A stretch of 46,656 nucleotides of DNA, from positions 1 through 46,656 of the forward strand of contig NZ_RDQM01000015.1 of NCBI RefSeq assembly GCF_003703475.1, in the 5' to 3' direction. The DNA comes from Allofranklinella schreckenbergeri. Lineage in GTDB: Bacteria; Pseudomonadota; Gammaproteobacteria; Burkholderiales; Burkholderiaceae_C. A program made the translations under genes and the position numbers. Positions 721 to 39,524 of the stretch are shown here, one piece after another. The notes under the pieces are model-generated. The model made no database searches and was not told where the DNA came from. It worked only from the letters and a program-made list of their open reading frames with translations. Positions within the stretch are counted from its first letter, which is position 1, and every line of letters begins with the position of its first letter.

Positions 721-795
721 TTCTATTTCAAAGTGAATGGGGTTTGATGCCTGTCATGCCGAAACAAGGTTATTTATTTTCTTTTTGATTTGTAA
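721..795 (-). repeat. Dispersed 75-bp palindromic repeat, copy 1a
   Basis: The core CATGCCGAAACAAGG is at 755-769, in reverse orientation relative to the form TTGTTTCGGCATG. It is flanked by A/T-rich arms resembling CTATTTCAAAGTGAATG on the left and CTTTTTGATTTGTAAT on the right. It forms an inverted pair with copy 1b between the hpnE stop and the greB start. Confidence 0.8.
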
Positions 796-816
796 TATTG
801 TGCTTTGTTTATATAT

Positions 817-882
817 CAAAAGCAATAAAACCACCCTATTTCGGCATGATGGGCGTGAAGTTTGTTTTCTTCTGTTTTGCAA
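817..882 (+). repeat. Dispersed 75-bp palindromic repeat, copy 1b
   Basis: The core CCCTATTTCGGCATGATGG is at 834-852 in forward orientation. The left arm is ATCAAAAGCAATAAAA and the right arm GTTTTCTTCTGTTTTGC. It abuts the hpnE stop codon at 883-885 and faces copy 1a tail to tail. Confidence 0.75.
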
Positions 883-2352
883 TCATGCATCGGGCGTCAA
901 GGCGGCGATGGCCTGCTGGCCGCTGCGCACCGCGCCTTCCAGCGTGGCGGGGTAGGGGCCTTGCACATAGTCGCCGCACAAGGCCAGGCCCTGCCAGGCC
1001 GGATGGGGCAGCGTGGGTGGCGGGCGCTGCAAGCCCGTGGTGCAGGCGAAGGTGGCGCGCTTTTCCACGATGGTGGCCAGCGCCTGCCAGCGCAGCGGCC
1101 CCAGGCCGGGGGCGAGCAAGTGCGGCTGCGCCATCTCGTGCAGGGCTTGCTGGCAGATGGCGCGCTCCAGCGCGGGCTTGTCCAGCCGCAAGGTGCTGGC
1201 GACCCAGGCCACCACGCCCGCATCGCCGCTGAGGCGCTGGCGATCGAAGATGAATTGGGCGGGCGCATCCGCGCCGCCGAGGCTGCTGGCCAGCATGGGC
1301 CGCGCCAGCAGGGGCGCGCCCGCAGGCGGCAGAGGGCGGCCATCGGGGCTTTGCGCTTGCAGGTACACGGTGCCGATCGGCTCGTGCTGCAAGGCTTGGG
1401 CGGTGCGCACCCAGGCCAGCGCGGCTTGGGTTGCGGGGCTGGGTGCGTCGTTTACACCGTTTGCGTCGTTGGCCGTGTGGGCCAGGCTGTGCAGCAGCCG
1501 CGCCGCCTCCGGCGCAGGCGTGGCGATGGCGACGGCATCAAACGCCTCGCCCTCCACCAGCCAGCCTGTTGTCTGGCCGGGGGGGCGGGCCAGGTGCGTG
1601 ACCCGCTCGCCCAGCCGCATCTGCGCGCCGTGGCGGCGCAACCAGTCGCAGGCTGGCTCGGCCAGCAGCGCGCCCAGCGGCACGGTGGGCAGCAGTAGAT
1701 CGGCGCTGCCAGGGCCGCCATCAAAACTCTCTTGCAGCACGCGCAAAAACACCTCGGCGCTGGCGTGCTCGATGGGGGTGTTGAGGGCGGCGGTGCACAG
1801 CGGCTCGATGAGCTGCTGCACCAGCCGCGCGGGCAGGCGCTGGCACAACTGCGCCACGCTGGCCTGTGGCGCGCAGCGAAAGCCCGCCCGCTGCCAGGCG
1901 GCGAGGGTGCGCAGCAAGGCCCAGCGCTCGGCCAGCGGCCAGCCGCGGGCGCGGGCAATGCCGATGGCCCCGGCCACGCCCTGCCAGGCGGCGGGCCACC
2001 AGCGCGGCAAGGCGGGCAAGGCCAAGCCGTGGTTGCGGGTGTCGCGCAAATCCAGCGGCAGCCGCTGCAAACAGTGGGCGGGGTCTGCGCCCACGGTGCG
2101 CATCAGGGCGAGCGAGTCGCGGTAGGCCCCGATCAGGATGTGCTGGCCGTTATCCAGCGTCAGCGCCGCGCCAGTGGGCGAGCGCACTGCCACGCTGCGC
2201 GCCCGTCCGCCGGGGGTGCGGGCGGCCTCCCACACCGTGACGGCCATGCCGCGCTGGCAAGCGGCCACCGCAGCGGCCAGCCCGGCCCAGCCTGCGCCAA
2301 TCACCGCCAGCCGCTGCGGGCGCGGCGCGGTCGGGGAAAGAGAAGTGGGCAT
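883..2352 (-). CDS. hpnE: Hydroxysqualene dehydroxylase HpnE (FAD-dependent amine-oxidase family)
   Basis: HpnE reduces hydroxysqualene to squalene, the last step of the bacterial HpnCDE route feeding hopanoids or carotenoids. The N terminus holds the FAD-binding Rossmann motif VIGAGWAGLAAA at about residues 17-28, followed by the acidic strand end VWEA and the GGRARS turn typical of amine-oxidase-fold enzymes. The C terminus has the matching FAD contact LCGDYVQGPYPATLEGAVRSG. The frame is open up to a GTG at 2448, directly after the hpnD stop. I chose the ATG at 2352 because it puts the Rossmann strand near the start; ATG 2361 is also possible and no strong ribosome site decides. It is co-oriented with hpnD upstream. 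Confidence 0.85.
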   Translation of the reverse strand: MPTSLSPTAPRPQRLAVIGAGWAGLAAAVAACQRGMAVTVWEAARTPGGRARSVAVRSPTGAALTLDNGQHILIGAYRDSLALMRTVGADPAHCLQRLPLDLRDTRNHGLALPALPRWWPAAWQGVAGAIGIARARGWPLAERWALLRTLAAWQRAGFRCAPQASVAQLCQRLPARLVQQLIEPLCTAALNTPIEHASAEVFLRVLQESFDGGPGSADLLLPTVPLGALLAEPACDWLRRHGAQMRLGERVTHLARPPGQTTGWLVEGEAFDAVAIATPAPEAARLLHSLAHTANDANGVNDAPSPATQAALAWVRTAQALQHEPIGTVYLQAQSPDGRPLPPAGAPLLARPMLASSLGGADAPAQFIFDRQRLSGDAGVVAWVASTLRLDKPALERAICQQALHEMAQPHLLAPGLGPLRWQALATIVEKRATFACTTGLQRPPPTLPHPAWQGLALCGDYVQGPYPATLEGAVRSGQQAIAALTPDA

Positions 2353-2448
2353 GGCAGGCATGGGGGCGGGCAGATGGCGGGGCCGAAGTGGCGTGGGGAG
2401 GTGCAAAAAAAGCGCGGCGTACAAGGCACGGCGTACAAGGCGCGCCAC

Positions 2449-5635: not shown

Positions 5636-5767
5636 ATCGCCAAAACAAAAAAATGCGCCCTGCCCAGCGGGCTTGGGTGCATCTTTAAACCAACCTCATA
5701 TCGCGGGAAATATGCACTAACATGCACCAATTGCGCCCTTTTTACTGTTTTTGACGGACTTTTGCCG

Positions 5768-8503
5768 ATGACTGCTCTTGCTGCCTATTCCCGTTATTAC
5801 CAGCGCATTCAGCGCCGTTATGCCCAGGAATGGGCGCTGCTGCCGCCAGGCCAGGCCACGCGCGAGTGCATGGAGCAGGCTTTGCAAGCGCTGCTGGTGC
5901 AGCGCTCGTTGGGCGAGGCCTTGCGCATCTTGCGGCAGTTGGTGCTGGTGCGCTTGATCGAGCGCGATGTGGAGCAGGGCGCGCCCATGCAAGAGGTGGT
6001 GCACAGCATGACGGCCCTGGCCGAGCTGGCGCTCGATCACGCTTGCGCCTGGGGCCAGGCCCAATTGCAGGCGCGCTACGGCCAGCCTTGTGACGAGCAA
6101 GGCCGTCCTGTGCAATTTTGGGTGGTGGGCATGGGCAAACTGGGCGCGCGCGAGTTGAATGTCTCCAGCGACATCGACTTGATCTACGTTTATGAGCGCG
6201 AGGGCCAGACCAGCGGGCGCGACGATGGCCGTGGCGTCATCAGCAACCAGGAGTATTTCGCGCATTTGGTGCGCCACATCCAGACGCTGGTGGGCGATGC
6301 CACGGAGCACGGCTTTGTTTTCCGCATGGACTTGGCTTTGCGCCCGCACGGCAAATCGGGGCCGCCCACGATCTCGCTAGGGGCGCTGCACCAGTATTTC
6401 CTGGTGCACGGGCGCGAGTGGGAGCGCTTTGCCTGGCTGAAAAGCCGCATCGTGGCGCCGGGCAAATGCGTGCGCATGCCCGGCGTGCTCAAGCTGCGCG
6501 AGACGGTGCTGCCGTTCGTGTTCCGGCGTTATCTGGATTACGCCATCTTCGATGCCCTGCGCGATTTGCACCGCCAGATTCGCGAACACGCCAGCGCCCG
6601 CAGCGCCGGGCGGCCCGAGCGCGCCAACGATTTGAAGATTGCGCGCGGGGGCATTCGGGAAATTGAATTCATCGTGCAGTTGCTGCAAGTGGTGCGCGGC
6701 GGCAACTTCCCCGAGCTGCGCTGCCGCCCTACGCTGGAGGCGCTGGAGCGCCTGGCGCGCGCCGATTTGATGCCCGAGGCCACCGCCGCCCAATTGCAGC
6801 AGGCCTACATCTTTTTGCGCCAAAGCGAGCACCGCATCCAATACCTGGACGATCAGCAAACCCACATCCTGCCCACCCAAAGCGCCGATCTGGCCTGGCT
6901 GGCCGCCAGCATGGGCTTTGCCGATAGCGCCAGCTATTTGCAAGCGCTGGCGGCGCACCGCGAGCGCGTGGCGCAAGAGTTCGACGCCCTGCTGGGCGCC
7001 CAGCAGGGCCGCGCCGATGAGGATGAAACCTTCGTCCACGAAAACACCCACGGTCGGCGCAACCTGCAAAACGTGCCCGCCTCCTTCACGCAATTGCTGG
7101 CGCAAGTGCCGCCCGTGATGGCCGAGCACTTGCGCACACGCACCGATTTGGCGCGCTTTCAAACCCTGCGTGAAGGTGCGCGCGCGCGCGCGTTGGCGCT
7201 GCTGGCAGCCACCGGCCAGCGCCTGGCCTCGGGCGAGGCCACGCCCGAGGCCGCCACGCGGTTTTGCGACTGGATGGAATCGCTGCTGGGGCGCGAAATC
7301 TATTTCGCCTTGCTGATGGAGCGCCCCGCCATCCACGCTCGCCTGCTGCAACTGCTGGGCAGCAGCAAATGGCCGCTGCGCTATATGCACACCCACCCTG
7401 GCGTGGTGGATGAGCTGGCCAGCGGCGCCATGCTGCGCGAGCGCTTTGACCCCGAGTGGTTTCTTGACGAGCTGCAACGCCGCCGCGACAGCCTGCGCGA
7501 AACCGGCGAGGCCGACGAAGAAGCCCTGATGGACGTGCTGCGCCGCGCCCAGCATGCCGAAACCTTCCGCACCCTGGCGCGCGATGTGGACGGGCGCATC
7601 ACCGTGGAAGAAGTGGCCGATGACCTCAGCGCCTTGGCCGACACCGTGCTGCAAACCGCTTGCGCCTGGTGCTGGCCGTATTTGCGCAAGCGCCATCGTG
7701 AGGCGCCGCAATTTGCCATCATCGGTTACGGCAAGCTCGGCGGCAAAGAGCTGGGCTACGGCAGCGATCTGGACATTGTTTTCGTCTATGACGACGAGCA
7801 TGAGGACGCCCCCCAGGTCTATGCCAACCTGGTGCGCAAGCTCATCGCCTGGCTCAGCACCGCCACCGCCGAAGGCACGCTCTACGAAATCGACACCGCC
7901 TTGCGCCCCAATGGCAACTCCGGCCTGCTGGTCACCAGCTTCAAAGCCTATGCCGACTATCAGCAGCAGCGCGGCAGCAACACCGCCTGGACCTGGGAGC
8001 ACCAGGCCATGACGCGGGCGCGCTTCGTCCACGGTTGCGAGCAATTGCGCCAGCGTTTTGACGCCGTGCGCGAAGCCGTCATCTGCGCCCCGCGTGACCG
8101 CGCCGCCCTGCGCGCGGAAATCGTCGCCATGCGCGAAAAAATGCGCCACGCCCGCCCTATCGCCCCCGGCCAGTTCGATTTGAAGCACAGCCCGGGCGGC
8201 ATGATCGACATCGAATTTGCCACCCAATACCTGGTGCTGGCCCACGCGGGCGAGCACCGCCAGCTCATCCGCAACGCGGGCAACACCGCCTTGCTGCGCA
8301 TGGCCGAAGACGCTGGCCTGCTGCCCGCTGGCCTGGGCTACGCTGCCGCCGACAGCTACCGCGCCATGCGCCGCAGCCAGCACACCGCCCGGCTGGATGA
8401 ATGCCCCGCCACGCTCCCGCTGGAGCAGGCCCAGGCCCTGCAACAAGCCGGGCGGCAATTGTGGGAGGCGGTATTTGGCCCGGCGCAGCCTGAATGCCCC
8501 TGA
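5768..8503 (+). CDS. glnE: Bifunctional glutamine synthetase adenylyltransferase/adenylyl-removing enzyme GlnE
   Basis: GlnE adds AMP to and removes it from glutamine synthetase in response to PII signals. The 911-residue protein shows both nucleotidyltransferase halves: GMGKLGARELNVSSDIDLIY near residue 130 (deadenylylase half) and GYGKLGGKELGYGSDLDIVF near residue 660 (adenylylase half), each with the Gly-Ser...Asp-x-Asp metal site. Conserved stretches such as GGIREIEFIVQLLQ and the later GGMIDIEF follow the respective centres. The ATG at 5768 is preferred over a TTG two codons upstream. It is transcribed divergently from groESL. Its stop codon touches dispersed repeat copy 2. Confidence 0.96.
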   Translation: MTALAAYSRYYQRIQRRYAQEWALLPPGQATRECMEQALQALLVQRSLGEALRILRQLVLVRLIERDVEQGAPMQEVVHSMTALAELALDHACAWGQAQLQARYGQPCDEQGRPVQFWVVGMGKLGARELNVSSDIDLIYVYEREGQTSGRDDGRGVISNQEYFAHLVRHIQTLVGDATEHGFVFRMDLALRPHGKSGPPTISLGALHQYFLVHGREWERFAWLKSRIVAPGKCVRMPGVLKLRETVLPFVFRRYLDYAIFDALRDLHRQIREHASARSAGRPERANDLKIARGGIREIEFIVQLLQVVRGGNFPELRCRPTLEALERLARADLMPEATAAQLQQAYIFLRQSEHRIQYLDDQQTHILPTQSADLAWLAASMGFADSASYLQALAAHRERVAQEFDALLGAQQGRADEDETFVHENTHGRRNLQNVPASFTQLLAQVPPVMAEHLRTRTDLARFQTLREGARARALALLAATGQRLASGEATPEAATRFCDWMESLLGREIYFALLMERPAIHARLLQLLGSSKWPLRYMHTHPGVVDELASGAMLRERFDPEWFLDELQRRRDSLRETGEADEEALMDVLRRAQHAETFRTLARDVDGRITVEEVADDLSALADTVLQTACAWCWPYLRKRHREAPQFAIIGYGKLGGKELGYGSDLDIVFVYDDEHEDAPQVYANLVRKLIAWLSTATAEGTLYEIDTALRPNGNSGLLVTSFKAYADYQQQRGSNTAWTWEHQAMTRARFVHGCEQLRQRFDAVREAVICAPRDRAALRAEIVAMREKMRHARPIAPGQFDLKHSPGGMIDIEFATQYLVLAHAGEHRQLIRNAGNTALLRMAEDAGLLPAGLGYAAADSYRAMRRSQHTARLDECPATLPLEQAQALQQAGRQLWEAVFGPAQPECP

Positions 8504-8505
8504 AA

Positions 8506-8583
8506 TTGCAAATCAATAGGAAATAAAAAACCCTTGTTTTGGCATGATGTGAATAAACAAGGGTTTCCTTTGATTGCTATTTC
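8506..8583 (+). repeat. Dispersed 75-bp palindromic repeat, copy 2 (hairpin-perfect form)
   Basis: The arms AAATCAATAGGAAA and TTTCCTTTGATTGC flank the core CCCTTGTTTTGGCATGATG (8531-8549). Here the right half of the core is complementary to the left: AAACCCTTGTTT (8528-8539) pairs perfectly with AAACAAGGGTTT (8555-8566). It begins at the glnE stop and could act as its transcript end. Confidence 0.85.
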
Positions 8584-9590: not shown

Positions 9591-12176
<2,586 letters not shown>

Positions 12177-12242: not shown

Positions 12243-12307
12243 GGGGGATGCGGGCTTTTTTGCGTCGCAGGACGCAGGGCGAACGCGTTGGGGGATGGAT
12301 TTGGTAT

Positions 12308-12382
12308 TCAGATCAAAAGAAATTCAATTTCACTACCATCATGCCGAAACAAGGGTATTTTATTTCTTTTGAAATGGAATTG
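12308..12382 (-). repeat. Dispersed 75-bp palindromic repeat, copy 3 (encodes a protein C terminus)
   Basis: The core CATCATGCCGAAACAAGGG is at 12337-12355, in reverse orientation. The arms are GATCAAAAGAAATTCAATTTC and ATTTCTTTTGAAATGGAATTG. The glycosyltransferase stop codon (12360-12362) and its last residues NSIPFQKK are read from the right arm. Confidence 0.85.
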
Positions 12383-14813
12383 AATTGCCATTGGGCGTCT
12401 GCAATGCCGTCTGTAATGCTTCTTGCAAGGCCGCCCACATGCGCTGGGCGATGGCTGGCCAGTCGCCCAAGTCCACAGCGCGTTGGCGGGCGGCTTCCAC
12501 CATAGCCTGGCGCTCGGGCGCGGGCAGGTGCAGCAGGCGCTCCAGCGCGGCGGGGAAGTCTTCGATCTCGGCGGCGTGGTAGTGCTGGCCTGCTTGCAAG
12601 ATGCCACCGCGCCCGCCAAAGGGCGTGCTGAGAATGGGCAGCCCGGCGGCGGCGTATTCCAGCATCTTGAGGTTGGTGCCCGAGCCGCTGATGACGGGGT
12701 TCAGCCCCGCGTCGGCAGCAGCCAGCCAGGTGCGCAACTGCGCATCGCTGACGCGGCCCACCAGCCAGACGTTGGGCGGCGCAGGCGGCAGCGCGGGCGC
12801 GTCGCACACGCTGCCCAGCACGGCGAAGGCGATGTCGGGGCAACGGTCGGCCCATTGCAGCAGGCTGCGCAGGGCGTCGATATTGGGGCCGTGCAGGCTG
12901 CCCACGAATACGGCCAGCGCGGCGGGGGCTGCTCCGCCTTGGGGGGCGGCGCGCTCGCCCTGCGGCATGGGCAGGCCCAGGCTGGCGCGCAGCGCGGCTT
13001 TTTGCTGCGTGGTGAGCACGGGATAGCTGCCTGCGGCCACGCCATTGGGCACGACGGCGGGGCGCTGCGCGAGCTGGTAGCGCTGCTGCATGCGCTGGGC
13101 GTCCTCCTCGCTGCAGCACAGCACCACGGGGGCCTGGCGGGCGCATTCGCCTTCGACGCGGGCGATGGCGGCCAGTGTGTCTGCGGCATCGGGGTAGATG
13201 GCGGCTTTCAGGTCGGCCTCCACGTTCAGCGATTCGTAGATCACGGGGCCGTCCCAAACGGCGCGGATGGCGGGCCAGCCGTAGGGGTGGCAGGCGATGA
13301 CGGCGTCGGCATCGGCGCATTCGTGCGCAATGGCTTGCAGCCAATCGGGCGTGAGCTGGGGGTGCAGCATGGCGGCCACGTCATCGCAGGTGGCGCGCAA
13401 CTGCTGCGACAGAGCGGCGCTGGCGCGCTGGTGCTCGGCGGTGGCGGGGATGACCACTTCCGTCAACCCCGCTTGCAGGCGGCGGCGCTGCCGCGCATGG
13501 GCGGCCGTGCCCAGGCTGACGACGGTGATGTTGGCGTAGGCGCTGAGGCTGCGGTAGAGCTGTTGCATGCGCACTTGCCCGCCGTTGTGGGCCGGGTAAA
13601 TGGGGAAGGTGTTGACCACCACCAGCTTGCGCCAGGGCTGGCTGAAGGCGGCGGCCAGGCTGGGCCAGTCGATGTGCGCCACGCTGGCGGCGGCGCGGCT
13701 GGCCAGGGCGTCGCGCAGCGCATCGTCCTGCGCCAGACGGTGCATGCCTTCGGCCAGGGCGGGGATGCTGGCCTGGGTGATCCAGCCGTTTTCGCCGTGG
13801 CGCACCAGCTCGCAGACGCCGCCGCTGTCGGCGCAGGTGAGCACGGGGCGGCCCGCTTGCAGGGCTTCGAGTGTGATGAGGCCGTAGTCCTCGCGGTCGG
13901 GCACAAAGGGCACGAACAGTGCCTGCCGGTAGGCGCTGGCGATTTGTGCATCGGTCAAGCGCCCGACCAGATGGATGTTGGGCTGGTCCTGGCACAGCGC
14001 CTCCAAAGCCGGGCGTTGCGGGCCATCGCCTGCGATCACCAATGGCGCGCGCACACCTTGGCGCGCGGCTTGCTGGTAGGCCTGAATGATCCAGTCCAGC
14101 CGTTTGGGCGCATCCAGGCGGCTGGCGGTGAAGATGGCGCCGGGCGGCACCTGGGGGCAGGGGGCGCTCTCGGGCCGGGGCAAGGTGGGGTGGTGGATGA
14201 CTTCAACCTGCGCGCCAGGGGGGAAGTAGTCGGCGCGCGCACGCACGGTGGCGGAGATGGCGGCGTAGCGGCGGATGGCGGTGCGCGCCAGGCCGATGGC
14301 GTCCAGCCGGTGCACGATGGTGCGAATCAGCGGGCCAGGCAGTTGGAGCAGCGAGGGCGGTTGCAGCCCGGCGGCTGCGCGCAGCGCGTCGAGGGCGCCA
14401 AAGATGTCCTCCAGGGCGGCGCGCTGGCTGCCCGCCTGCGCCAGCGTGTGCAGCAGGGCTTGCACCTGCGGGGTGCGCTCGCCTTTGGGTATTTCGGTGG
14501 GCCAGCCCGCGGGCCAGGTGTCGTACAGGCCGCGCAGCTTGTGCTGCACGAATACGTGGTGGTCGGGGTGGGTCGCCATCCAGGCCGGGTATTTGGTGCT
14601 GATGACGCGGTCGAAATGCGTCAAATCCAGCGCGGCCCAGCGCCGGTAGCTGTCCACGATCTCCCAGAAATTGCGCTCGGGCGTGGGCAGCTTGATGAGA
14701 TCGGCTTGCACGCCAGGCTGGGCATTGAGCGCGGCAATCCAGCCAGTCCACAGGTTTTCCGCGCCGCCGATGACGAAGGGAACGGGGCTGGGCGCGATCA
14801 AGGCGATTTTCAT
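12360..14813 (-). CDS. Tandem-fusion glycosyltransferase (two GT4-like halves)
   Basis: This 817-residue protein has two GT-B glycosyltransferases in one chain. The first half (about 1-395) starts MKIALIAPSPVPFVIGGAEN and carries the GT4 donor site: TASRLDAPKRLDWIIQA, LVIAGDGPQ, HLVGRLTDAQIASAYRQA and DYGLITLEALQAGRPVL. The second half restarts with LVVVNTFPIYPAHNGGQVRM near residue 397 and has its own FVGSLHGPNID and GSGTNLKMLEYAAAGLPILST. It probably transfers sugars to a surface polysaccharide or lipid; the substrate is unknown. No other glycan genes adjoin it. The last eight residues come from a dispersed repeat. It lies on the same strand as clpB and the ABC transporter, 45 bp behind the latter. 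Confidence 0.85.
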   Translation of the reverse strand: MKIALIAPSPVPFVIGGAENLWTGWIAALNAQPGVQADLIKLPTPERNFWEIVDSYRRWAALDLTHFDRVISTKYPAWMATHPDHHVFVQHKLRGLYDTWPAGWPTEIPKGERTPQVQALLHTLAQAGSQRAALEDIFGALDALRAAAGLQPPSLLQLPGPLIRTIVHRLDAIGLARTAIRRYAAISATVRARADYFPPGAQVEVIHHPTLPRPESAPCPQVPPGAIFTASRLDAPKRLDWIIQAYQQAARQGVRAPLVIAGDGPQRPALEALCQDQPNIHLVGRLTDAQIASAYRQALFVPFVPDREDYGLITLEALQAGRPVLTCADSGGVCELVRHGENGWITQASIPALAEGMHRLAQDDALRDALASRAAASVAHIDWPSLAAAFSQPWRKLVVVNTFPIYPAHNGGQVRMQQLYRSLSAYANITVVSLGTAAHARQRRRLQAGLTEVVIPATAEHQRASAALSQQLRATCDDVAAMLHPQLTPDWLQAIAHECADADAVIACHPYGWPAIRAVWDGPVIYESLNVEADLKAAIYPDAADTLAAIARVEGECARQAPVVLCCSEEDAQRMQQRYQLAQRPAVVPNGVAAGSYPVLTTQQKAALRASLGLPMPQGERAAPQGGAAPAALAVFVGSLHGPNIDALRSLLQWADRCPDIAFAVLGSVCDAPALPPAPPNVWLVGRVSDAQLRTWLAAADAGLNPVISGSGTNLKMLEYAAAGLPILSTPFGGRGGILQAGQHYHAAEIEDFPAALERLLHLPAPERQAMVEAARQRAVDLGDWPAIAQRMWAALQEALQTALQTPNGNSIPFQKK

Positions 14814-17796: not shown

Positions 17797-18075
17797 ATGA
17801 AATATTTTGTATGGCTGCTTCGGGCAGCCTTTTTCTTTCTGCTGTTTGCGTTCTCGCTCAACAACCGGCATGCGGTCACCGTCCATGGTTTCTGGGGCGT
17901 GCAATGGCAGGGGCCGCTGGTGCTGGCGATGTTGGTGGCATTCGCGCTAGGGTTGGCTTTGGGCTTGGCGACGGTGATTCCGCGCTGGCGACGCGGGCGC
18001 GAGCAGCCTGTGGATGAGTGGACTGCGCCAGGGCGCGCAGCGGTGCAGGGGCAGGAGTTGCAACATGGAGATTGA
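17797..18075 (+). CDS. lapA: LapA-domain membrane protein
   Basis: A 92-residue inner-membrane protein with two hydrophobic helices (WLLRAAFFFLLFAFSLNN and GPLVLAMLVAFALGLALGLATVI) around a short loop, followed by an Arg-rich cytoplasmic end. This is the LapA (YciS, DUF1049) layout; in enterics LapA works with LapB on lipopolysaccharide assembly. The ATG at 17797 begins MKYFVWLL; an in-frame ATG six codons upstream is less likely. It overlaps the lapB start by 11 bp. The ihfB gene often found just upstream in this group is absent. Confidence 0.85.
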   Translation: MKYFVWLLRAAFFFLLFAFSLNNRHAVTVHGFWGVQWQGPLVLAMLVAFALGLALGLATVIPRWRRGREQPVDEWTAPGRAAVQGQELQHGD

Positions 18076-19407: not shown

Positions 19408-19430
19408 TTGTGCAAAAAGCGCCGCTGGTT

Positions 19431-19554: not shown

Positions 19555-19626
19555 AGCCGCCTGCGAGACTGCGGCGCCAGTCAGCGGCCAGGTCCTGGAT
19601 TTGTCAACGTTCGAGAAAAACACGCG

Positions 19627-21141: not shown

Positions 21142-21216
21142 ATATTTTAAATCAATAGGAAACAAAAATGCCTTGTTTTGGCATGATGGTGTTTTATGTG
21201 TGTTTCCTTTAAAAAT
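21142..21216 (+). repeat. Dispersed 75-bp palindromic repeat, copy 5
   Basis: The arms AAATCAATAGGAAACAAAAA and GTGTTTCCTTTAAAAATG flank the core CCTTGTTTTGGCATGATGG (21171-21189). This is the only copy between two divergent genes (DUF945 and pyrF) rather than at a 3' end, so it lies in or near promoters. Confidence 0.85.
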
Positions 21217-24683: not shown

Positions 24684-24821
24684 AGGCGAGCCATTGCCGG
24701 GCCTGCTTTGCTGTGGGCTTGAGGACCACCATCCCAAGAAAAACAGGCAATTAGGCAATGGCTTGGAGTGCTGCTATATTGCGACGCCTTTGATAAAAGT
24801 CAAAAATTCTTATCCGTCGCC

Positions 24822-26708
24822 ATGCTCTACCAGATTTACGAAGCGCAACGCGCCATTTCCGAACCTTTTGCCGACTTCGCCAAGGCGTCATCCAAACTGT
24901 TCTCCAACCCCTTGTGGGCCATGTCGGAAACGCCGCTGGCCCAGCGCATCGCCGCAGGGTATGACCTGCTCTACCGCCTGGGCAAAGACTACGTCAAGCC
25001 CACCTTTGACATCAAAACCGCCGATGTGGGCGGTACGGAAGTGGCGATTCACGAACGTATCGATTTGGATTTGCCCTTTTGTGAGCTGCGCCGCTTCAAA
25101 CGCTTCTCCGACAACCCCGCCACTTTGGAGCGCATGCTCAAGCACCCTGCGGTGCTGATCGTGGCGCCGCTGTCGGGCCACTACGCGACCTTGCTGCGCG
25201 AGACGGTGCGCACCATGCTTGCGGGCCATAAGGTCTACATCACCGACTGGAAAAACGCCCGCATGGTGCCGCTGAGCGAGGGCGAATTCCACCTGGACGA
25301 CTACGTCAACTACGTGCAGCAATTCATCCGTCTGCTGCAACAAAAGCACGGCAATTGCCACGTGATGAGCGTGTGTCAGCCCACCGTACCCGTGCTGGCT
25401 GCCATCTCGCTCATGGCCAGCCGTGGTGAAAAGCTGCCGCGCTCGATGGTGATGATGGGCGGCCCGATTGATGCGCGCAAAACCCCCACCACCGTCAACG
25501 ATCTGGCCGTCAAGCGCAGTTTTGAATGGTTTGAAAACAACCTCATCTACCGCGTCCCCTACGGCTACCCCGGTGAAGGCCGCCGCGTGTACCCCGGCTT
25601 TTTGCAATACAGCGGCTTCGTGGCGATGAACCCCGACCGCCACGCCAGCAGCTATTACGATTACTTCCGCAACCTCATCCGCGGCGATGACGACGCCACG
25701 GAATTCCACCGCAAGTTCTACGACGAATACAATGCGGTGCTGGACATGGATGCGAACTACTACCTCCAGACCATCGAAACCGTGTTCCAGAAGTTCAAGC
25801 TGGTCAATGGCACCTGGGATGTGCGCAACCCCGAAGGCAAGCTTGAGCGCGTCAAGCCCGCCGATATCCGCGGCGTTGGCCTGATTACGGTGGAAGGCGA
25901 GCTGGACGATATCTCTGGCAGCGGCCAAACCGAGGCGGCGCACGGCCTGTGCAGCAACATCGCCAAGGGCGATCGCGCCCATGTGGAAGTGGAAGGTGCT
26001 GGCCACTACGGGATTTTCAGCGGCAGCCGCTGGCGCAAAGTGGTGTACCCGCAAATCCGCGACTTCATTCTGCGCTTTGAACCGTCGCAAAGCGACGCGG
26101 CCAAGGCCCCAACAACGCCCCCAAAGGCTGCTCAGACCGCCCCGGCTGCCGCCAAAGCGCCTGCTGCGGTGAAAAAAACGCCCGCCACCGCGCCCAAAGC
26201 CAAAGCTGCGAGTGCGGCTAAAACCGCTGCGAAAACGACGGCTTCAAAAACAGCCGCCTCAAAAACCACGGCCGCAAAAACAACCGCCCCCAAAGCGGCT
26301 GCGCCCCAAACAGCCGCTGCCAAAGAGGAAAAGCCCCAAACAGCGGCTCCTGAAGCCACTGCCCAAAAGGCTGCAACTCCCAAAGCTGCTGCTGCTAAAG
26401 CCGCCACACCGCAGCCTGCCGTGCAATGGCCCAGCAGCCGCGCCAAAGCCGAGCCGCAAGCCCAGGCTGAAGCCAAGCCTGCCACGGCGGCTGCCCCTGC
26501 CGCCCAGTCGGATGCCAAAGTCCAGGAGCCTGCCCCGCAAGCACCAGCCTCCGAGCGCAAAGCTGCAGAAGCCGCTCCTGCGGCGGCAACCAGCGCACCT
26601 GCGGCAGCGTCTGCGCCACAAGCTCAAGCCGCAGCTGCTGAGGCCCAGCCTGCCAGCGCTGCGCCTGCTGCAGCCAAGTTGACAGACGCCAGCGACAAAA
26701 AAGCCTGA
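24822..26708 (+). CDS. phaZ: Intracellular PHB depolymerase PhaZ with a Lys/Ala/Pro-rich C-terminal tail
   Basis: PhaZ mobilises polyhydroxybutyrate granules. The first 420 or so residues match the intracellular depolymerase of PHB-storing betaproteobacteria. The nucleophile is a cysteine (C185 in [11 protein letters not shown], the place of Ser in normal lipase boxes), with a later [12 protein letters not shown] and [13 protein letters not shown] that would supply the Asp and His. Usual length is about 400-420; this one has 628. Residues from about 421 on are a low-complexity tail of AAKTT, KAAAP and PAAA units, Lys-rich first and Glu/Pro-rich later, resembling DNA-binding tails of PhaF-type phasins. 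The rsxB-like gene begins 26 bp downstream. Confidence 0.93.
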
Positions 26709-27496: not shown

Positions 27497-27659
27497 TGTG
27501 CTGCATGGCCAAGCCAGCGCGCCAGAGGCACTGTCGATACCCCCGTTAGGTACCCGTTAGGCCCGCGCGGCTCGCCGCTTGCATATTCCCACCACGCGCG
27601 CCACGGTGACCGCGCTGCACCGACAATGGCGCCTTTGCGCTTGCACAACCAACAGCATC

Positions 27660-28517
27660 ATGAAACTCTGCCATTTCGACATCGGCCTTGACCGGCCCTT
27701 CTTCCTCATCGCCGGCCCCTGCGTGGTCGAATCCGAGCAACTGCAAATGGACGTGGCCGGGCAGTTGAAAGAAATAACCGCCGCGCTGGGCATCCCCTTC
27801 ATCTTCAAAAGCAGCTACGACAAGGCCAACCGCTCCAGCGGCGCCAGCTTTCGCGGCCCGGGCATGGAAAAAGGGCTGGAAATCCTGGCCAAGGTGAAGA
27901 AAGAACTGCAGCTGCCCGTGCTCACAGACGTGCACACCGAGGCCGAAATCCCCGCCGTGGCCGCCGTGGTGGACGTGCTGCAAACCCCCGCCTTTTTGTG
28001 CCGCCAGACCGACTTCATCCGCGCCGTGGCACAGTCGGGCAAGCCGGTGAACATTAAGAAAGGCCAGTTCCTCAGCCCGCACGACATGAAAAACGTCATC
28101 GCCAAAGCCCGCGCCGCTGCGCGCGAAGCGGGCCTGCCCGAGGACAACTTCATGGCTTGCGAGCGCGGCGCCAGCTTTGGCTACAACAACCTGGTTAGCG
28201 ACATGCGCAGCCTGGCCATCATGCGCGAGACCGGCGCGCCCGTGGTGTTCGATGCCACCCACAGCGTGCAACTGCCCGGCGGCCAAGGCACCAGCAGCGG
28301 CGGCCAGCGCGAAATGGTGCCCGTGCTGGCGCGCGCGGCGGTGGCCGTGGGCGTGGCTGGCCTGTTCATGGAAACGCACCCGGATCCGAACAACGCCCTC
28401 TCCGACGGGCCTAACGCCGTGCCGCTCAAGCACATGAGGGCGCTGCTGGAAACTCTGCTGGCGCTGGATGCGGTGACGAAGCAAAACGGTTTTCTGGAAA
28501 ACGACTTCAGCGCCTGA
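27660..28517 (+). CDS. kdsA: 3-deoxy-8-phosphooctulonate synthase KdsA
   Basis: KdsA condenses arabinose 5-phosphate with phosphoenolpyruvate to KDO 8-phosphate for the LPS inner core. The 285-residue length is typical. Signatures include [64 protein letters not shown] and the C-terminal [16 protein letters not shown]. The ATG at 27660 is chosen from family length; the frame is open upstream to 27579. pyrG and eno, frequent neighbours, are not present. Two tandem dispersed repeats follow. Confidence 0.97.
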
Positions 28518-28548: not shown

Positions 28549-28626
28549 ATTTTCAAATCAATAAGAAAAAATAAACCCCTGTTTCGGCAACAGGGGTGGG
28601 AAGTAATTTTTCTTTTGATGTGAAAG
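28549..28626 (+). repeat. Dispersed 75-bp palindromic repeat, copy 6 (hairpin-perfect form)
   Basis: The arms TTTTCAAATCAATAAGAAAA and TTTTTCTTTTGATGTGAAAG are inverted. The core is rebuilt into a perfect 9-bp stem, ACCCCTGTT (28575-28583) / AACAGGGGT (28589-28597), with loop TCGGC. It lies 31 bp behind the kdsA stop and may serve as its transcript end. Confidence 0.85.
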
Positions 28627-28647: not shown

Positions 28648-28727
28648 CAATTTTCTCAATCAAAAGGAAATGAAACTGCCCTTTTTCGGCATATTGGGTA
28701 GAAAGTTGATTTTTCTTTGATTGGTTG
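28648..28727 (+). repeat. Dispersed 75-bp palindromic repeat, copy 7
   Basis: The arms CTCAATCAAAAGGAAATGAAA and TTTTTCTTTGATTGGTTG surround the core GCCCTTTTTCGGCATATTGGG (28678-28698). It is in tandem with copy 6, same orientation, 15 bp ahead of the convergent binding-protein stop. Confidence 0.8.
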
Positions 28728-28742: not shown

Positions 28743-30269
28743 TCAGTTGGCCCAACGCAGGGCGGAGAGATCGTTGACAAACACCGGCATATCGCGCCAC
28801 AGGCCGCGCAACTCGCTGCGCGCCACCGTCACCCACTGGGGCTGGTAGAGAAAGCCGTTGACGCTGTCCTCGGCCAGCATGCGCTGGGCCTGGCCCAGCA
28901 GGCGGGCGCGCTCGGCGGGCTGCACGGCGTTGCGGATTTGCTCCCATAGATCGCGGAAGGTCTGCGAGTCGTAGCCCCAGTAGTAGGCGGGGTTGGCGTA
29001 GTTGTCCAGATCGAACGGCTCCACGTGCGAGATCATGGTCAGATCAAAGTTGTGGTTTTTGTACGTGTTGCTCAGCCACTGTGCCCATTCCACGTTTTGC
29101 AGTTGCACCTGGATGCCCACTTTGGCCAGCATGCCCGCGATGACGATGCCGCCCTGGCGTGCATAGGGCGTGGGCGGCAGCGTCATGCGCAGCTTCAGCG
29201 GCGCGCTCACGCCTGCTTCCTTGAGCAGGGCGCGGGCTTTGTCCAGGTCGTAAGGGTTGATGCCGGTGGTGTCGATGTAGCCAAAGGCGCCGGGCACGTA
29301 GTGGCTGCCAATGGGCACGCCATAGCCGTTGCCCGCGCTTTCGATCACGGCCTTGCGGTCGATGGCCGCCGCAATGGCGCGGCGCACGCGCACATCGTTG
29401 AGGGGCTTGCGGCGGTTGTTGATGGTGAGGATGGTTTTGGCGCGCGAGCCGCTGACGATGACCTGGAAAGCGGGGTTGCTCTTGAACGGCTCCAGCCCGC
29501 GCGAGGTCATGCGTGGAAAGACGTCCACATCGCCCGCCAACAAGCTGGCCACGCCGGCGGCGGGGTCGGAGATGAAGCGGAACACGGCGGTCTGGATCGG
29601 CAATTGATCGGCGCGGGGGTAGTCGTCCCAGCGCTGCAGCGTCAGCGAGGTGCCGCGCATCCAGCGCGCCAGGCGGTAGGGGCCGGTGCCCACGGGGGCA
29701 CTGGCGTTCTTGGCCACGCTTTTGGGCTCGACGATGATGGCCGTGGCCTGGCCGAGGATGAACAGCAGCTCCGGCTCGATCTCGGCGTTGGTGATGCGTA
29801 CGGTGTAGTCGTCGATGACTTGCGTGGTCAGCTTGGCAAAGACGGATTTGTCCTTGTTGGTGCTTTTGTCGGATTTGGCGCGGTCAAAGCTGAACTGCAC
29901 GGCCTTGGCGTCAAACGGCTCGCCGTTGTGAAAGCGCGCCCCGCGGCGCAGCCGGAAGGTGTAGGTGCGCAAATCGGGCGAGACATCCCAGCTCTCGGCC
30001 AGCAGCGGCATGACGCTGCCGTCGGGGTTGATCTTGGTGAGCGTCTCGTAAATGTTGTAGAGCGTGACTTCGCCCACGGCCGATGCGGCGTTGCTGGTGG
30101 GGTCCAGCCCCGAAGGCTCCAGCACCATGCCGATGGTGAGGGTGGATTTGCCGCCAGCGCCAGCCTGCACAGGCGCTCGCGCAGGCTCGGCGCCTACCGT
30201 GCCCGCAGGCACCATGCAGGCGGCCACAAGGGCCGCGCCAGAGGTCAGTACTGCTCGCCGCTTCAACAT
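28743..30269 (-). CDS. Peptide/nickel-type ABC transporter solute-binding protein
   Basis: A family-5 extracellular binding protein of 508 residues. The N terminus MLKRRAVLTSGAALVAACMVPAG has twin arginines ahead of the hydrophobic stretch, so Tat export is possible. Family features are LTIGMVLEPSGLDPTSN, YNIYETLTKINPDGSVMPLLAESW, the signature region YTFRLRRGARFHNGEPFDAKAV and the late NHNFDLTMISHVEPFD. The transported compound is probably a peptide or similar molecule. No permease or ATPase gene adjoins, so it is an orphan in this window. The ATG at 30269 with TAGGAG upstream was chosen over an extended start. Confidence 0.88.
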   Translation of the reverse strand: MLKRRAVLTSGAALVAACMVPAGTVGAEPARAPVQAGAGGKSTLTIGMVLEPSGLDPTSNAASAVGEVTLYNIYETLTKINPDGSVMPLLAESWDVSPDLRTYTFRLRRGARFHNGEPFDAKAVQFSFDRAKSDKSTNKDKSVFAKLTTQVIDDYTVRITNAEIEPELLFILGQATAIIVEPKSVAKNASAPVGTGPYRLARWMRGTSLTLQRWDDYPRADQLPIQTAVFRFISDPAAGVASLLAGDVDVFPRMTSRGLEPFKSNPAFQVIVSGSRAKTILTINNRRKPLNDVRVRRAIAAAIDRKAVIESAGNGYGVPIGSHYVPGAFGYIDTTGINPYDLDKARALLKEAGVSAPLKLRMTLPPTPYARQGGIVIAGMLAKVGIQVQLQNVEWAQWLSNTYKNHNFDLTMISHVEPFDLDNYANPAYYWGYDSQTFRDLWEQIRNAVQPAERARLLGQAQRMLAEDSVNGFLYQPQWVTVARSELRGLWRDMPVFVNDLSALRWAN

Positions 30270-30336
30270 GCGTTGGGTTCTCCTAGGGTTAAAGGGTAGG
30301 GGGCTTTCCAAAGGGCGCGCATTATTTCACGCAGAC

Positions 30337-31645: not shown

Positions 31646-32824
31646 TCAGTCGCTCCGGGTGAAAAACAACCAAGCCTGCTCAGCCCAGTCTTGCAGCACT
31701 TCCTGAGCCTGCTCGCTCAGGCGGGCGGCTTGCTTGGCATCCAGGTGGCGCTGGTCGGCCAGCAGGCGCAGCAGGCGCGCGTCTTTGCCGCCCATGCGGT
31801 AGCTCTCGCCATTGATGTAGAGGTAGCGCTGGTCGTAAAGCATGCGGGTTTTGCGGTTGAGCGCCAGCGCTTGCCCCGCCGCGGGTTGGGCGGGTGCATC
31901 CGCTGCGTCGAAATCCACGCCCGGGGCAGGCTCGCTGAGGTATTCGCCCAGAATTTGCTCCAGCGCATGGGGCTGTTGCAGGCGTTGCATGGCGGCTTGG
32001 CGCGCAAAGTCCTGCAAGGCTGGGGGAATGGAGCCCGATTGAGCGGTGGCCTCCTGGCGCGGGTCGCGGTAGAGCACGCCGGGGTGCGGGTTGCTGGCGT
32101 CGGCGCATGCTTCGTCCTCGTCCAGCTCCTGCGGCTCGGCCAGGCGTTCGAGCAAGATGGTGGCCAGCTCGGCCTGCTGGGGTGAGCGAAAGCCGATGGA
32201 ATACGTCATGCAGTCGCCGCTGTGGGCAATGCCGTCGTGGGCGTAGCCCGGTGGCAGATACAGCATGTCGCCGGGCTCGAGCACCCATTCTTCTTCCGGC
32301 TCGAAATGCTCCAGGATGCGCAGCGGCACGCCTTGTTGCAGCGTCAAATCCTTTTGCCGCCCGATGCGCCAGCGCCGCTGGCCCTGGGCCTGGAGCAAAA
32401 AGACGTCGTAGCTGTCGAAGTGCGGGCCGACGCCGCCTTCCTCGCTGGCGTAGCTGATCATCAAATCATCCAACCGCGCCTGGGGGATGAAGGCAAATTG
32501 CTGCAACAGGGCGTGCGCGCCCTCATCGTGCAAATCCACGCCTTGTACCAGCACCGTCCAGCCTTTTTGCGTGCGCGGGGGCAATTGTTTGGGCGCAAAC
32601 GGGCCTTGGCGCAATTGCCAGCCCGCGCCGGTTTGCTCCACCAGCCGCGACTGCACGTCCTCCCGCGCAGCCAGGGCCAGCAGCGCCTTGGCCGATACCG
32701 GCGGCACAAAGCCGGGGATGGCCTGGCGCACCAGCAGCGGCTTGCGCTGCCAGTGCTTGCGCATGAAGCGCGCCGGGTTTAAGCCGCCCAGCAGGGCCAG
32801 GGGGGCGTCGATGGATAAAGGCAT
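31646..32824 (-). CDS. Cupin/JmjC 2-oxoglutarate oxygenase, RoxA-like ribosomal protein hydroxylase
   Basis: E. coli RoxA (YcfD) hydroxylates an arginine of ribosomal protein L16 using Fe(II), O2 and 2-oxoglutarate. This 392-residue homologue begins NPARFMRKHWQRKPLLVRQAIPGF, a typical entry. It carries the Fe site H-x-D at residues 135-137 (GPHFDSYDVFLLQ) with the distal His in LPPGYAHDGIAHSG. The C-terminal winged-helix part (RTRMLYDQRYLYINGESY-like) is present. ATG 32824 has a good GGAGG ribosome site; the frame is open 34 codons further. It is followed by the coupled hypothetical gene and is divergent from the SlyD-like gene. Confidence 0.88.
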   Translation of the reverse strand: MPLSIDAPLALLGGLNPARFMRKHWQRKPLLVRQAIPGFVPPVSAKALLALAAREDVQSRLVEQTGAGWQLRQGPFAPKQLPPRTQKGWTVLVQGVDLHDEGAHALLQQFAFIPQARLDDLMISYASEEGGVGPHFDSYDVFLLQAQGQRRWRIGRQKDLTLQQGVPLRILEHFEPEEEWVLEPGDMLYLPPGYAHDGIAHSGDCMTYSIGFRSPQQAELATILLERLAEPQELDEDEACADASNPHPGVLYRDPRQEATAQSGSIPPALQDFARQAAMQRLQQPHALEQILGEYLSEPAPGVDFDAADAPAQPAAGQALALNRKTRMLYDQRYLYINGESYRMGGKDARLLRLLADQRHLDAKQAARLSEQAQEVLQDWAEQAWLFFTRSD

Positions 32825-32879
32825 GGCAGGGAACCTCCGTAACGAAGTGGATGCGCGCAAACTGCGACAATCCGCCCCC

Positions 32880-33404
32880 ATGGAAATCATGAAGAAAACC
32901 GTAGTGGCGCTGACCTGGGTGCTCAAGGACGGCCAAGGTGAAGAACTGGATGTGTTGGAGCAGCCCGTCGAATTCTATGTGGGCGGCATCGACCTGCTGC
33001 CCAGCATCGAGCAGGCCCTGCTGGGCAAGCGCGAGGGCGAGCGCGTGGACTTGCAATTGGAGCCGCACGACGCTTTTGGCGATTACGACGAGCAACTGGT
33101 GTATCTGGAGGAGCTGGCGCTGTTCCCCGAAGGCTTGAGCGAAGGCATGGTGATTGAGGGCAGTGCCTTGCCGCCGCAGGCGCGCTCGCAGGTGGCGCCC
33201 GATGTGCTGCTGACGGTGACCGAGCTGTACCCCGAGCATGTCGTCCTCGACGGCAACCACCCCCTGGCCGGCATGGCCTTGCAACTGCACTTGCGCATCC
33301 ACAGCGCGCGCCCCTCCACGCCCGAGGAGCAGCGGCGCGGCTCTGCGGGCACAGGCTTTTTCCGCATCCTGCCGCAAGCGCCCGGCTCGGATAGCCTGCA
33401 TTGA
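32880..33404 (+). CDS. SlyD-like FKBP-type peptidyl-prolyl isomerase
   Basis: A 174-residue cis-trans isomerase and chaperone. The FKBP core is interrupted by the insert-in-flap domain: VVALTWVLKDGQGEELDVLE, then LLPSIEQALLGKREGERVDL, PHDAFGDYDEQLVYL, VLDGNHPLAGMALQLHLRI (the GNHPLAG hallmark of SlyD/FkpB). The His/Cys-rich metal-binding tail of E. coli SlyD is absent. Two in-frame starts lie three codons apart, ATG 32880 and ATG 32889. A 55-bp divergent promoter region is shared with the RoxA-like gene. Confidence 0.9.
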   Translation: MEIMKKTVVALTWVLKDGQGEELDVLEQPVEFYVGGIDLLPSIEQALLGKREGERVDLQLEPHDAFGDYDEQLVYLEELALFPEGLSEGMVIEGSALPPQARSQVAPDVLLTVTELYPEHVVLDGNHPLAGMALQLHLRIHSARPSTPEEQRRGSAGTGFFRILPQAPGSDSLH

Positions 33405-33413
33405 GGATATCTT

Positions 33414-33488
33414 CTATTTCAAAGAATAAAAAATTCCCTTGTTTCTGCAACGTGAGTATTGAATCGATTTTACTTTGAATTGAAATTC
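33414..33488 (+). repeat. Dispersed 75-bp palindromic repeat, copy 8
   Basis: The arms CTATTTCAAAGAATAAAAAA and ATTTTACTTTGAATTGAAATTC flank the core TCCCTTGTTTCTGCAACGTG (from 33435). It starts ten bases after the SlyD-like stop, between convergent genes. The core's right half is diverged. Confidence 0.8.
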
Positions 33489-37738: not shown

Positions 37739-37821
37739 TATTTACAAATCAAAGTAAAATAAATTCTAATGCCATCATGCCGAAATGACATTGTTTTATT
37801 TCTTTTGATTTGAAATAAAAG
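37739..37821 (-). repeat. Dispersed 75-bp palindromic repeat, copy 9
   Basis: The best-preserved arms of the family, TTTACAAATCAAAGTAAAAT and TTTCTTTTGATTTGAAATAA, are inverted. The core CATCATGCCGAAATG (37773-37787) is in reverse orientation. It ends six bases before the rluF stop codon and lies upstream of tolB. Confidence 0.88.
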
Positions 37822-37826
37822 TGTAT

Positions 37827-39290
37827 CTAAATCGCCTCATCATCGGCCAGATAGCGCCACTGGCCCTGGGGGAGCTGGCCCAGCGGCAAGCGCCCGATGC
37901 GCACGCGCTTGAGCGCCGTCACATGCAGGCCCACCAGCGCGCACATGCGGCGGATTTGCCGCTTTTTGCCCTCGCGCAGCACGAAGCGCAACTGCTCCGG
38001 GTTTTGCCAATCGACTTGTGCGGGCAGCAGCGCTTTGCCGTCCAGCTCCAAGCCGTGGCGCAGCCGCTGCAAGCCCTCGGCGGGGAAGGCCGCTTGCACG
38101 TTTTCGCTCACCTCCTCACCCGTGGGCGAGCGCCAACTCACGCGCACCAAATATTCCTTTTCAATCGTGCTGTCCTCGCCAATGATGCGCCGGGCCAGAC
38201 GGCCGTCTTGCGTGAGCAAGAGCAGGCCCGTCGAATCGATATCCAGCCGCCCCGCCGGGGCAAAGCCTTTGAGCGAGGCGGGCGCGCCGCGCCGTCCGCC
38301 ATGCGCGGGCATCCACTGGTTGGCGTGGGTGATCAGCCGCAGTGCAGGCGTGTGGCCATCCTCGGCCTGGCCGCTGACATAGCCCACCGGCTTGTGCAGC
38401 ACGATGGTGGCGCGCCGGGCCTGGCGGGCGCGGGCCAGCTCCGCCACATCCACCACATCGCCCGGCAGCACTCGCTGCCCCATTTGGGCTGGGTGCCCAT
38501 TGATGCGCACCCAGCCCTTCTCCACCCATTCATCGGCTTCGCGGCGAGAGCACCATTGGGCGTCCGCCAAATATTTGTTCAGGCGCACGCCCTGGGCTTG
38601 TTGAGGGGGGAGGGGGGTGTGCGAGGCGGTGGAGTGAGGGGCTGATGCTCCAGAGTCTGCCCGGTTCGCTCGGTTCGCCCGGCCGATTGGGCGAGGCGTT
38701 GGCGGTTGTGTTGGTGCTGCCGCCGTCTCAAAGCGCCGCGCCTGCCGTTGCGCTTGTGGGCGATCCCCCTGGTGTTGCGGCGGGCGCGACGATGCGGCGA
38801 AAGGCTGAGCGGGCCGGCCGCGCGCATCACCCGCGCGATGGCGCGCAGCGCCCGTCCGGGCATTCGGGCCGCTTGTGGGCGCGGGCCGGGCAGCGCTGCT
38901 CCCCGTGCGTGCGCCCGATCGCGCCCCTGCACTGGCGGCTCCTGCCGGGCGCTTGGGCTTGGCAGTGCGCCCGGCCGGGGAGCCACTGGCTGGCGCGCGG
39001 CCCGATGCCGGCTGCGCCGACGAGGCCGCAGACCGCGTGAATGCAGCGCGCCCCGCGCCATTGGCCGACTGGCGCCGGGCTGCCCCGCCGTTGCCGGGCT
39101 TTTGTCCGCTGTTTGGCCCTTGCTTCAACCCACCTGGGTTGGTCGCCTCCGCGCCTTTGCGCAACCGCTTGCCGCCAGGGCCAGGCCGCAAGGCGGCACG
39201 GCGAGGCTGCCGACCTGCGGCGGACTCCGCACGGGCATCTTTGGGGGGCAGGGAGAGCGTTTGGCGCTTGGGCGGGCTGGACTCGGACAT
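37827..39290 (-). CDS. rluF: 23S rRNA pseudouridine synthase, RluF-like, with a long basic N-terminal extension
   Basis: The enzyme core (about 234-487) has an S4 RNA-binding domain ([30 protein letters not shown]), then the RsuA-type catalytic motif [17 protein letters not shown] with the active Asp near residue 350. [34 protein letters not shown] and [17 protein letters not shown] follow; this ending is the RluF pattern, modifying U2604-type positions. The first 233 residues are Arg/Pro/Gly/Ala-rich and disordered, about twice the size of extensions in related RluB proteins. The stop is six bases from repeat copy 9. Confidence 0.82.
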
Positions 39291-39443
39291 GGCGAAGAGG
39301 AGCTAAACGCCCCCACAACGAGGGCGGAAAAAGCGGGGGATTATCGGCTTCTCTCTCGGGAGCAGCCTGCAAGAGCGTGTTGCGAACTTGGTGCCAGATG
39401 GCAGAGCCGCTCCCCGTGAACGAGGTGTCAAGGTTCTATTGTT

Positions 39444-39524
39444 TGTATTTCAAAGGAAAATTTTATTGCTTGTTTTGGCTTGATGATATTGAATAATATT
39501 TTCTGATGATTTGAAAAAAACATG
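39444..39524 (+). repeat. Dispersed 75-bp palindromic repeat, copy 10
   Basis: The arms GTATTTCAAAGGAAAATTTT and ATTTTCTGATGATTTGAAAA flank the core GCTTGTTTTGGCTTGATGAT (from 39468). It ends nine bases before the nrdG stop codon at 39534. Confidence 0.8.

Follow-up and report, generated by a model that had tools for sequence, protein, structure and literature searches.

An A/T-rich quasi-palindromic cassette family behind genes of Allofranklinella schreckenbergeri: candidate orientation-independent transcription boundaries

The stretch analysed here (the window) comprises the 46,656 nucleotides of contig NZ_RDQM01000015.1 (assembly GCF_003703475.1) of Allofranklinella schreckenbergeri, and carries eleven copies of a cassette of about 80 bp in which inverted A/T-rich arms flank an asymmetric TTTnGGCAT core. 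These cassettes belong to a family that is real, large, lineage-specific and selected: its members sit behind stop codons, occupy positions common to two sister species, show selection on arms and core, and have fewer canonical terminators than other gene ends facing wide gaps. As judged from the sequences, there is about an even chance that the cassettes are orientation-independent transcription boundaries which replace intrinsic terminators in this lineage. Under this proposal, quasi-palindromic cassettes would have spread before the source genome and its sister parted, would then have become fixed, and would now act at the 3' ends of transcription units, where, we infer, transcription arriving from either side is stopped or trimmed. 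The source genome (G000, 2,822,117 bp) was compared with that of the sister species (G008, 80% complete) and with further congeners, the set being numbered G001–G009.

In a sequence logo from a 446,656-bp sample of the source genome, the unit is bounded at about −35 to +46 around the core. It reads, in order, a W-rich edge, the arm ACAAATCAAAARGAAA, an A-tract, a variable spacer with CC, the core TTTCGGCATGATGG (position 3 of which is variable), a second variable spacer, the arm TTTTCCTTTTGATTTG and a W-rich edge. Over about 15 positions one arm is the inverted repeat of the other, the G pair being offset by 1 bp. An earlier note on this DNA had listed eleven A/T-rich imperfect palindromes in both orientations, and its description of arms, orientations and A/T-richness is borne out: all eleven places carry the element, and the copies appear as dips in a window of 63.8% G+C. 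Profile R1 finds all of them (E 1.3e-19 to 8.1e-11) but was built from 36 copies with these eleven included, so that its matches there arise by construction. Two counts are independent of it. The 20-base core given in the note, with up to three mismatches, occurs five times in the window against 0.01 expected from dinucleotide shuffles (once exactly, at 12336–12355), and the genome contains 98 occurrences of the 13-mer TTTYGGCATGATG and none of its reversed control.

The earlier note had proposed scanning the genome for further copies, and many were found. A whole-genome profile search in which the best 150 of 1,731 candidates were scored gave at least 151 matches, the weakest among the matches listed having E 5e-14. 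In the 446,656-bp sample there were 117 profile matches, of which ten were dropped, seven because they lay opposite a copy already counted and three because they were weak and partial. The remaining 107 copies in 447 kb correspond to about one per 4.2 kb, so that the frequency first noted in the window, roughly one per 4 kb, holds over a larger sample. A weight matrix trained on these 107 also returned 107 in the sample, although not the identical set, against none in the reversed sequence; in the sister genome it found 199 copies in 789,685 bp. Adding seven further stretches to the source sample gave 137 copies in 586,656 bp, and by extrapolation the whole genome would hold about 660–680.

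The taxonomic range is narrow. Among ten genomes of the genus, the profile (E 0.001) gave at least 150 matches each in the source and sister genomes, four in G007, one each in G002 and G009, and none in the other five. Of 399 genomes of the family, only the source genome and G007 matched (E 1e-7, best 11 candidates scored per genome), and the core 13-mer occurred 0–5 times in each of the other 398; of 399 genomes of the order, the source genome alone matched (E 1e-6). Neither scan thus gave a match beyond the genus. The weight matrix gave three hits in 798,240 bp of congener stretches, all of them in two G007 stretches picked for holding copies. No phage or plasmid match was returned at E 0.01 with one element as query, and one strict pattern had no match in viral contigs. 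In the literature searched on repetitive extragenic palindromic (REP) sequences in Comamonadaceae, intergenic repeats, bidirectional terminators, uptake signals and roadblocks, no description of the cassette family was listed.

Two of the G007 matches are adjacent (contig C18, 120.9 kb) and lie in DNA 94% identical to the source genome. Because comparison blocks in three other G007 stretches (L151–L153) show 66–92% identity, this site was probably acquired horizontally. For the third G007 copy (C18, 81.5 kb) no alignment was obtained with the source or sister DNA compared, and the fourth match is a 44-bp partial one. Separately, we observed that G007 segments at about 119–128 kb of C18 (L149) and about 70.5–73.5 kb of C12 (L150) are mostly 91–97% identical to the source or sister genome, other sampled G007 blocks being mostly lower; the C18 segment carries cassette copies, and the C12 segment is without a copy that the source genome has.

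For placement, genes were called by a purpose-written simple gene finder and gaps of at least 60 bp were counted. Copy midpoints fell inside called genes in 0/107 cases in the source genome and 2/199 in the sister genome. Copies were present in 72/183 and 111/294 tandem gaps, respectively, and in 19/35 and 53/81 convergent gaps; independent carriage of a copy by about 40% of 3' ends would predict that 64% of convergent gaps are occupied, which is near the observed values. Copies in divergent gaps are the exception to such independent occupancy, and to the location at transcription-unit 3' ends that the cassettes otherwise share with intrinsic terminators. In tandem gaps, copies stood at a median of 16 bp (source) and 19.5 bp (sister) from the upstream stop, as against 99 and 70 bp from the next start. 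Most occupied gaps held a single copy (93/98 and 173/181). The core pointed with the gene in 95 (38+57) and against it in 92 (37+55) of 187 tandem copies, and an earlier count from the source profile list gave 39 and 36. Spacing was as regular as random choice among gaps (coefficient of variation 0.804, simulated 0.73–0.97), with 4.6% of spacings below 500 bp, the copies being mostly solitary. Replication polarity was considered and is not supported: orientation stood to local GC skew as 72 to 65 of 137, a weak proxy given that 251 called genes there are on the supposed lagging strand against 214 on the other, and 57/130 neighbours shared an orientation.

Aligned blocks of the sister genome are 81–98% identical to the source genome, most of them 91–97%. 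In about 142 kb of such blocks, all 40 source copies found with the weight matrix (40/40) have a sister copy in the same orientation. Two sister copies in those spans were unmatched; one is weak and its source partner is a profile match, and the other, a strong one (L116:15125, 97 bits), falls between two of the blocks at a place where source and sister differ by several hundred bases. After 37 short loci and further stretches had been added, 75/75 source copies in aligned blocks with both flanks were present in the sister genome; for one of them the sister partner reached 16.6 bits, which is below the threshold. No clear movement since the split was seen in the aligned part.

Changes in these 75 orthologous pairs were strongly concentrated outside the motifs. 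Core positions 0–2 and 4–8 had changed in 22/600 cases (3.7%), the arms in 130/2025 (6.4%) and the A-tract in 15/300, against 260/1050 (24.8%) in the 3' spacer (p 5e-33 for the core and 8e-45 for the arms); the values were 90/300 in the 5' spacer, 32/75 at core position 3, 65/300 at core positions 9–12 and 749/4500 (17%; 435/2475 and 314/2025) in the flanks. Picking copies by their source-genome score should, by reasoning, raise rather than lower the differences at motif positions. Because of this concentration of changes outside the motifs, arms and core are, on the comparison of the two species, under purifying selection.

This unevenness bears on the idea that the cassettes are a fossil, functionless family of miniature inverted-repeat transposable elements (MITEs), left by a single burst and surviving best behind genes while decaying. 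The earlier note had listed a MITE-like element among its candidates, and the cassettes are indeed short, non-coding, numerous, bounded by inverted ends and confined to one small clade; Correia elements are MITEs that are likewise short and non-coding, with inverted ends and many copies. The non-coding share is mixed in this regard, at 19% in source and sister samples against 11% in G007 (13.8% in a larger sample), 12% in G002 and 17% in G005, but 35% in G001. A segment 94–96% identical between the source genome and G007 is also in keeping with this idea, as the source copy sits in an unaligned interval of 126 bases that corresponds to 37 bases in G007; three comparisons with this distant congener gave no clean empty site. 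However, a dead element should decay evenly, whereas core, arms and 3' spacer differ as given above, and the selection is position-specific. The target-site duplications suggested as a check were likewise not found: flank k-mers of 2–9 in 305 copies, set against shuffled pairing, gave none that was clear, the best of 5,408 tested combinations being a 3-mer in 16/305 copies against 4.4 expected. Nor was clear insertion polymorphism seen between the sisters. As to a parent insertion sequence with shared ends, arms standing alone outside elements gave 21 hits for each arm in the part of both genomes searched, against 27 and 75 in reversed controls. We consider a functionless fossil improbable, although MITE may describe the origin of the cassettes.

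A REP-like element, also named in the earlier note, fits the life-style but not the defining features. Like REP sequences and bacterial interspersed mosaic elements (BIMEs), the cassettes are dispersed extragenic imperfect palindromes present in hundreds of copies. They differ in being 80 bp long, A/T-rich in their arms, mostly solitary and built around a conserved asymmetric core, with no GTAG in the consensus and no GTAG/GTGG beside a G+C-rich palindrome. Y1 transposase (PF01797) had no match in the source genome or in the 80% complete sister genome, and an origin by REP-associated tyrosine transposases is accordingly unsupported. The cassettes are thus near REP/BIME in life-style while failing the defining tests. 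The literature links REP/BIME to protein binding and Rho-dependent termination (PMC2817692). A further comparison is with the betaproteobacterial repeat element (BRE), whose description gives full-length units of 75–91 bp, usually intergenic, in Betaproteobacteria including Comamonadaceae, with up to 29 copies per genome in the paper's table, some in coding sequence and sometimes in tandem arrays (PMC3110155). Length and mostly intergenic site are similar, number and placement differ, and BRE and cassette are probably distinct.

High density and an asymmetric conserved core would also suit a DNA uptake sequence of a natural-transformation system, and in other bacteria terminators can arise from uptake sequences that occur in pairs. 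Here, however, conservation extends to both arms in addition to the core, and core-like hits without an element are rare (236 inside elements, 5 outside, 2 in the reversed control). The near absence of copies from genes is a further difference, as uptake motifs of Pasteurellaceae and Neisseria have an intragenic distribution (PMC2346458). An uptake function seems very improbable.

The bearing of the cassettes on termination was assessed with a score demanding a stem of −8 kcal/mol or lower plus a T-tail. Canonical terminators were found at 30/120 copy ends in the source genome and 87/213 in the sister genome, as compared with 74/126 and 119/220 ends at wide gaps without a copy, and 27/99 and 43/182 operon-internal ends. 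A first count with up to 110 ends per class had given 27% vs 63% (source) and 38% vs 58% (sister), with 9–21% in shuffled sequence. Orthologous ends were then taken from congener stretches of G001, G002, G005 and G007. There, terminators occurred at 22/35 orthologues of copy ends, 22/36 of wide-gap ends without copy and 4/32 of operon-internal ends (shuffled controls 6, 6 and 5), while the same ends in their own genome gave 13/35, 25/36 and 5/32 (p 0.009 for the first two). Because the congener ends resemble other unit ends and the own-genome ends are depleted, we conclude that copies lie at true transcription-unit ends, where canonical terminators tended to vanish. Loss of Rho was rejected as a cause, there being a full-length rho match in the source genome and a partial one in the incomplete sister genome.

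A number of points weigh against boundaries that replaced terminators. The terminator score is our own and simple, as are the scripts behind the gene calls, and in the orthologous-end test a gap-length filter was applied to the comparison class but not to the element class. In the sister genome the difference is weaker (41% vs 54%, p 0.007), and copy ends there still exceed operon-internal ends in terminators. Scored as such, only 7% of the 187 tandem copies are canonical terminators on the sense strand and 9% on the opposite one; neither score nor energy shows a sense-strand bias, and in the 92 copies with the core against the gene it is the opposite strand that folds better (p 0.01). Copies are also present in 7/44 (source) and 17/95 (sister) divergent gaps, where no transcript ends, and the 10th percentile of the distance to the next start (19 and 16 bp) leaves little promoter room for some copies. 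A plain terminator does not require a conserved asymmetric core. Finally, arm–arm mutual information over 305 copies is nil, with no column-wise covariation between the arms, and single-sided changes at paired positions break the pair in 225 cases and keep it in 123 (100.6 expected).

The remaining folding results are mixed. RNAalifold gave no consensus pair for 36 copies. Among the 26 symmetric pairs in 161 copies of clean register, a single one (−27/39, p 8e-5) shows base-pair covariation; another (−18/30, p 5e-4) mixes G-C with A-A. Copies nevertheless fold 4.4 kcal/mol better than column-permuted ones (2.8–2.9 in the clean-register subset), and their own halves fold 1.9 kcal/mol better than swapped halves, 60–61% of copies beating their own swaps; of double changes at paired positions, 23/48 still pair. 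Conserved RNA structure was rejected as a general feature on the RNAalifold and mutual-information results, a real if modest own-half preference remaining. By eye, some variants keep the arms and have a G+C hairpin in the middle (L126:3846, L085:1318, L113:4846) and others a hairpin around the GGC of the core (L075:1434, L074:16607). We read this as sequence recognition in most copies and real hairpin selection in a minority. The hairpin-core variants resemble bidirectional intrinsic terminators, which have an A-tract, inner hairpin and T-tract on both strands. The family as a whole differs from these: few cassettes have a G+C-rich stem directly abutting a T-tract (7–9% of the tandem copies), and arms and core are conserved as sequence.

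A stabilising or processing hairpin in the 3' untranslated region of the mRNA, distinct from a terminator, would agree with the position directly behind stops, with A/T arms that form a long weak stem on either strand, and with the better folding of own halves. It would not account for the missing sense-strand preference or for the fewer canonical terminators, and is in our view a rather slim prospect. The conservation of sequence more than of pairing suits a BIME-like site of chromosome organisation, to which a nucleoid or topology factor (gyrase-like, IHF-like or other) would bind through arms and core, termination being incidental and the 3'-end position reflecting where supercoils build up or where sites are tolerated. 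Orientation that is random to genes and to the weak GC-skew proxy, and the occupancy of roughly one in six divergent gaps, speak for such a site. By itself, however, it leaves unexplained both the fewer canonical terminators at copies and the terminator hairpins in some of them, and the spacing is no more regular than random gap choice. We regard it as a tentative possibility.

Returning to transcription boundaries, the scarcity of canonical terminators among the copies and the lack of a sense-strand bias make a factor that reads the sequence possible, and the boundary is proposed to have two layers. In the first, inverted A/T arms and core would be recognised by sequence, through a DNA- or RNA-binding factor or through polymerase pausing in A/T tracts; in the second, an inner hairpin would add ordinary intrinsic termination in a minority of copies. 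The terminator cassette of the earlier note is accordingly favoured in the sense of a gene-3'-end boundary, although few copies score as canonical intrinsic terminators, and its protein-binding site is kept as a candidate given that sequence rather than pairing is conserved. A full roadblock-type system, with a lineage-specific protein on the inverted arms and TTTnGGCAT at several hundred gene ends stopping polymerase from either side in place of ancestral hairpin terminators, is a more specific proposal that we hold to be unlikely. Dispersed palindromes are usually discussed as selfish or loosely functional; this cassette points to a sequence-recognised boundary acting via a candidate factor. 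Here a narrow clade shows one repeat family that has already reached hundreds of gene ends. Selection on it can be measured at single-base level, and canonical terminators that close relatives possess are depleted at its copies, so that whether a repeat can take over a genome's termination becomes directly testable.

In the window, with most neighbouring genes identified by Pfam, nine of the eleven copies have a stop codon no more than 35 bp away. The two exceptions are copy 1 (720–797, − strand, R1 score 59.4 bits), the second copy within the gap that separates an amine-oxidase gene (883–2448, −) from greB (124–681, −), and copy 6 (21143–21215, +, 55.1 bits), the only one in a divergent gap (DUF945 gene on − and pyrF-like gene on +). 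Copy 2 (808–883, +, 60.2 bits) abuts the stop of the amine-oxidase gene and is inverted relative to copy 1. Rfam at a lax threshold placed MIR7504 over copies 1 and 2 at 29.6 bits, far from the gathering value of 83, and this was rejected; at the gathering threshold only a tRNA matched. Copy 3 (8504–8581, +, 65.3 bits) directly follows the stop of glnE (5762–8503, +; Pfam GlnE) and contains an inner hairpin CCCTTGTTT...AAACAAGGG (fold z −4.5 and −5.0). Copy 4 (12305–12379, −, 69.0 bits) overlaps the final 20 or so bases of a glycosyltransferase gene (12360–14813, −), upstream of clpB (9591–12176, −).

Convergent gaps hold four of the copies. Copy 5 (19331–19406, −, 54.9 bits) lies about 27 bp past the stop of a lapB-like gene (18014–19303, +; Pfam Zn_ribbon_LapB and TPR). 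Copy 7 (28550–28626, +, 62.8 bits), with the inner hairpin CCCCTGTTTCGGCAACAGGGG in its fold, is about 32 bp past the stop of a DAHP-synthase gene (27579–28517, +), and copy 8 (28651–28726, +, 62.5 bits) occupies the same gap, separated by about 16 bp from the stop of a solute-binding-protein gene (28743–30311, −). Copy 9 (33411–33488, +, 47.0 bits) is about 6 bp past the stop of a gene (32487–33404, +) with a weak FKBP_C match of 21.0 bits, just under the cut-off of 21.1. Copy 10 (37740–37817, −, 60.2 bits) stands about 9 bp past the stop of a pseudouridine-synthase gene (37827–39290, −) and upstream of tolB, and copy 11 (39442–39518, +, 40.7 bits) about 15 bp past that of a radical-SAM gene (39534–40271, −), itself next to an NRDD reductase gene.

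A different repeat, intergenic, G+C-rich and about 205 bp long, occupies 19425–19630, some 20 bp past copy 5. In 520 kb of G007 it matched 12 times, with no second match in the source stretches and none in the sister stretches searched; at the orthologous position the sister genome carries a short sequence that is unrelated to it. An imperfect 15-bp tandem repeat lies at 26223–26299, within a called gene (24768–26708, +). Synteny with sister contig G008:C91 ends near 39346 although that contig goes on, and the last 7 kb of the window (39347–46656) may be a variable segment. In this part, at 42537–42670, two near-palindromic ACACTACATCTAGTAT-type boxes stand upstream of an anaerobic ribonucleotide reductase gene (40506–42665, −); they resemble NrdR boxes.

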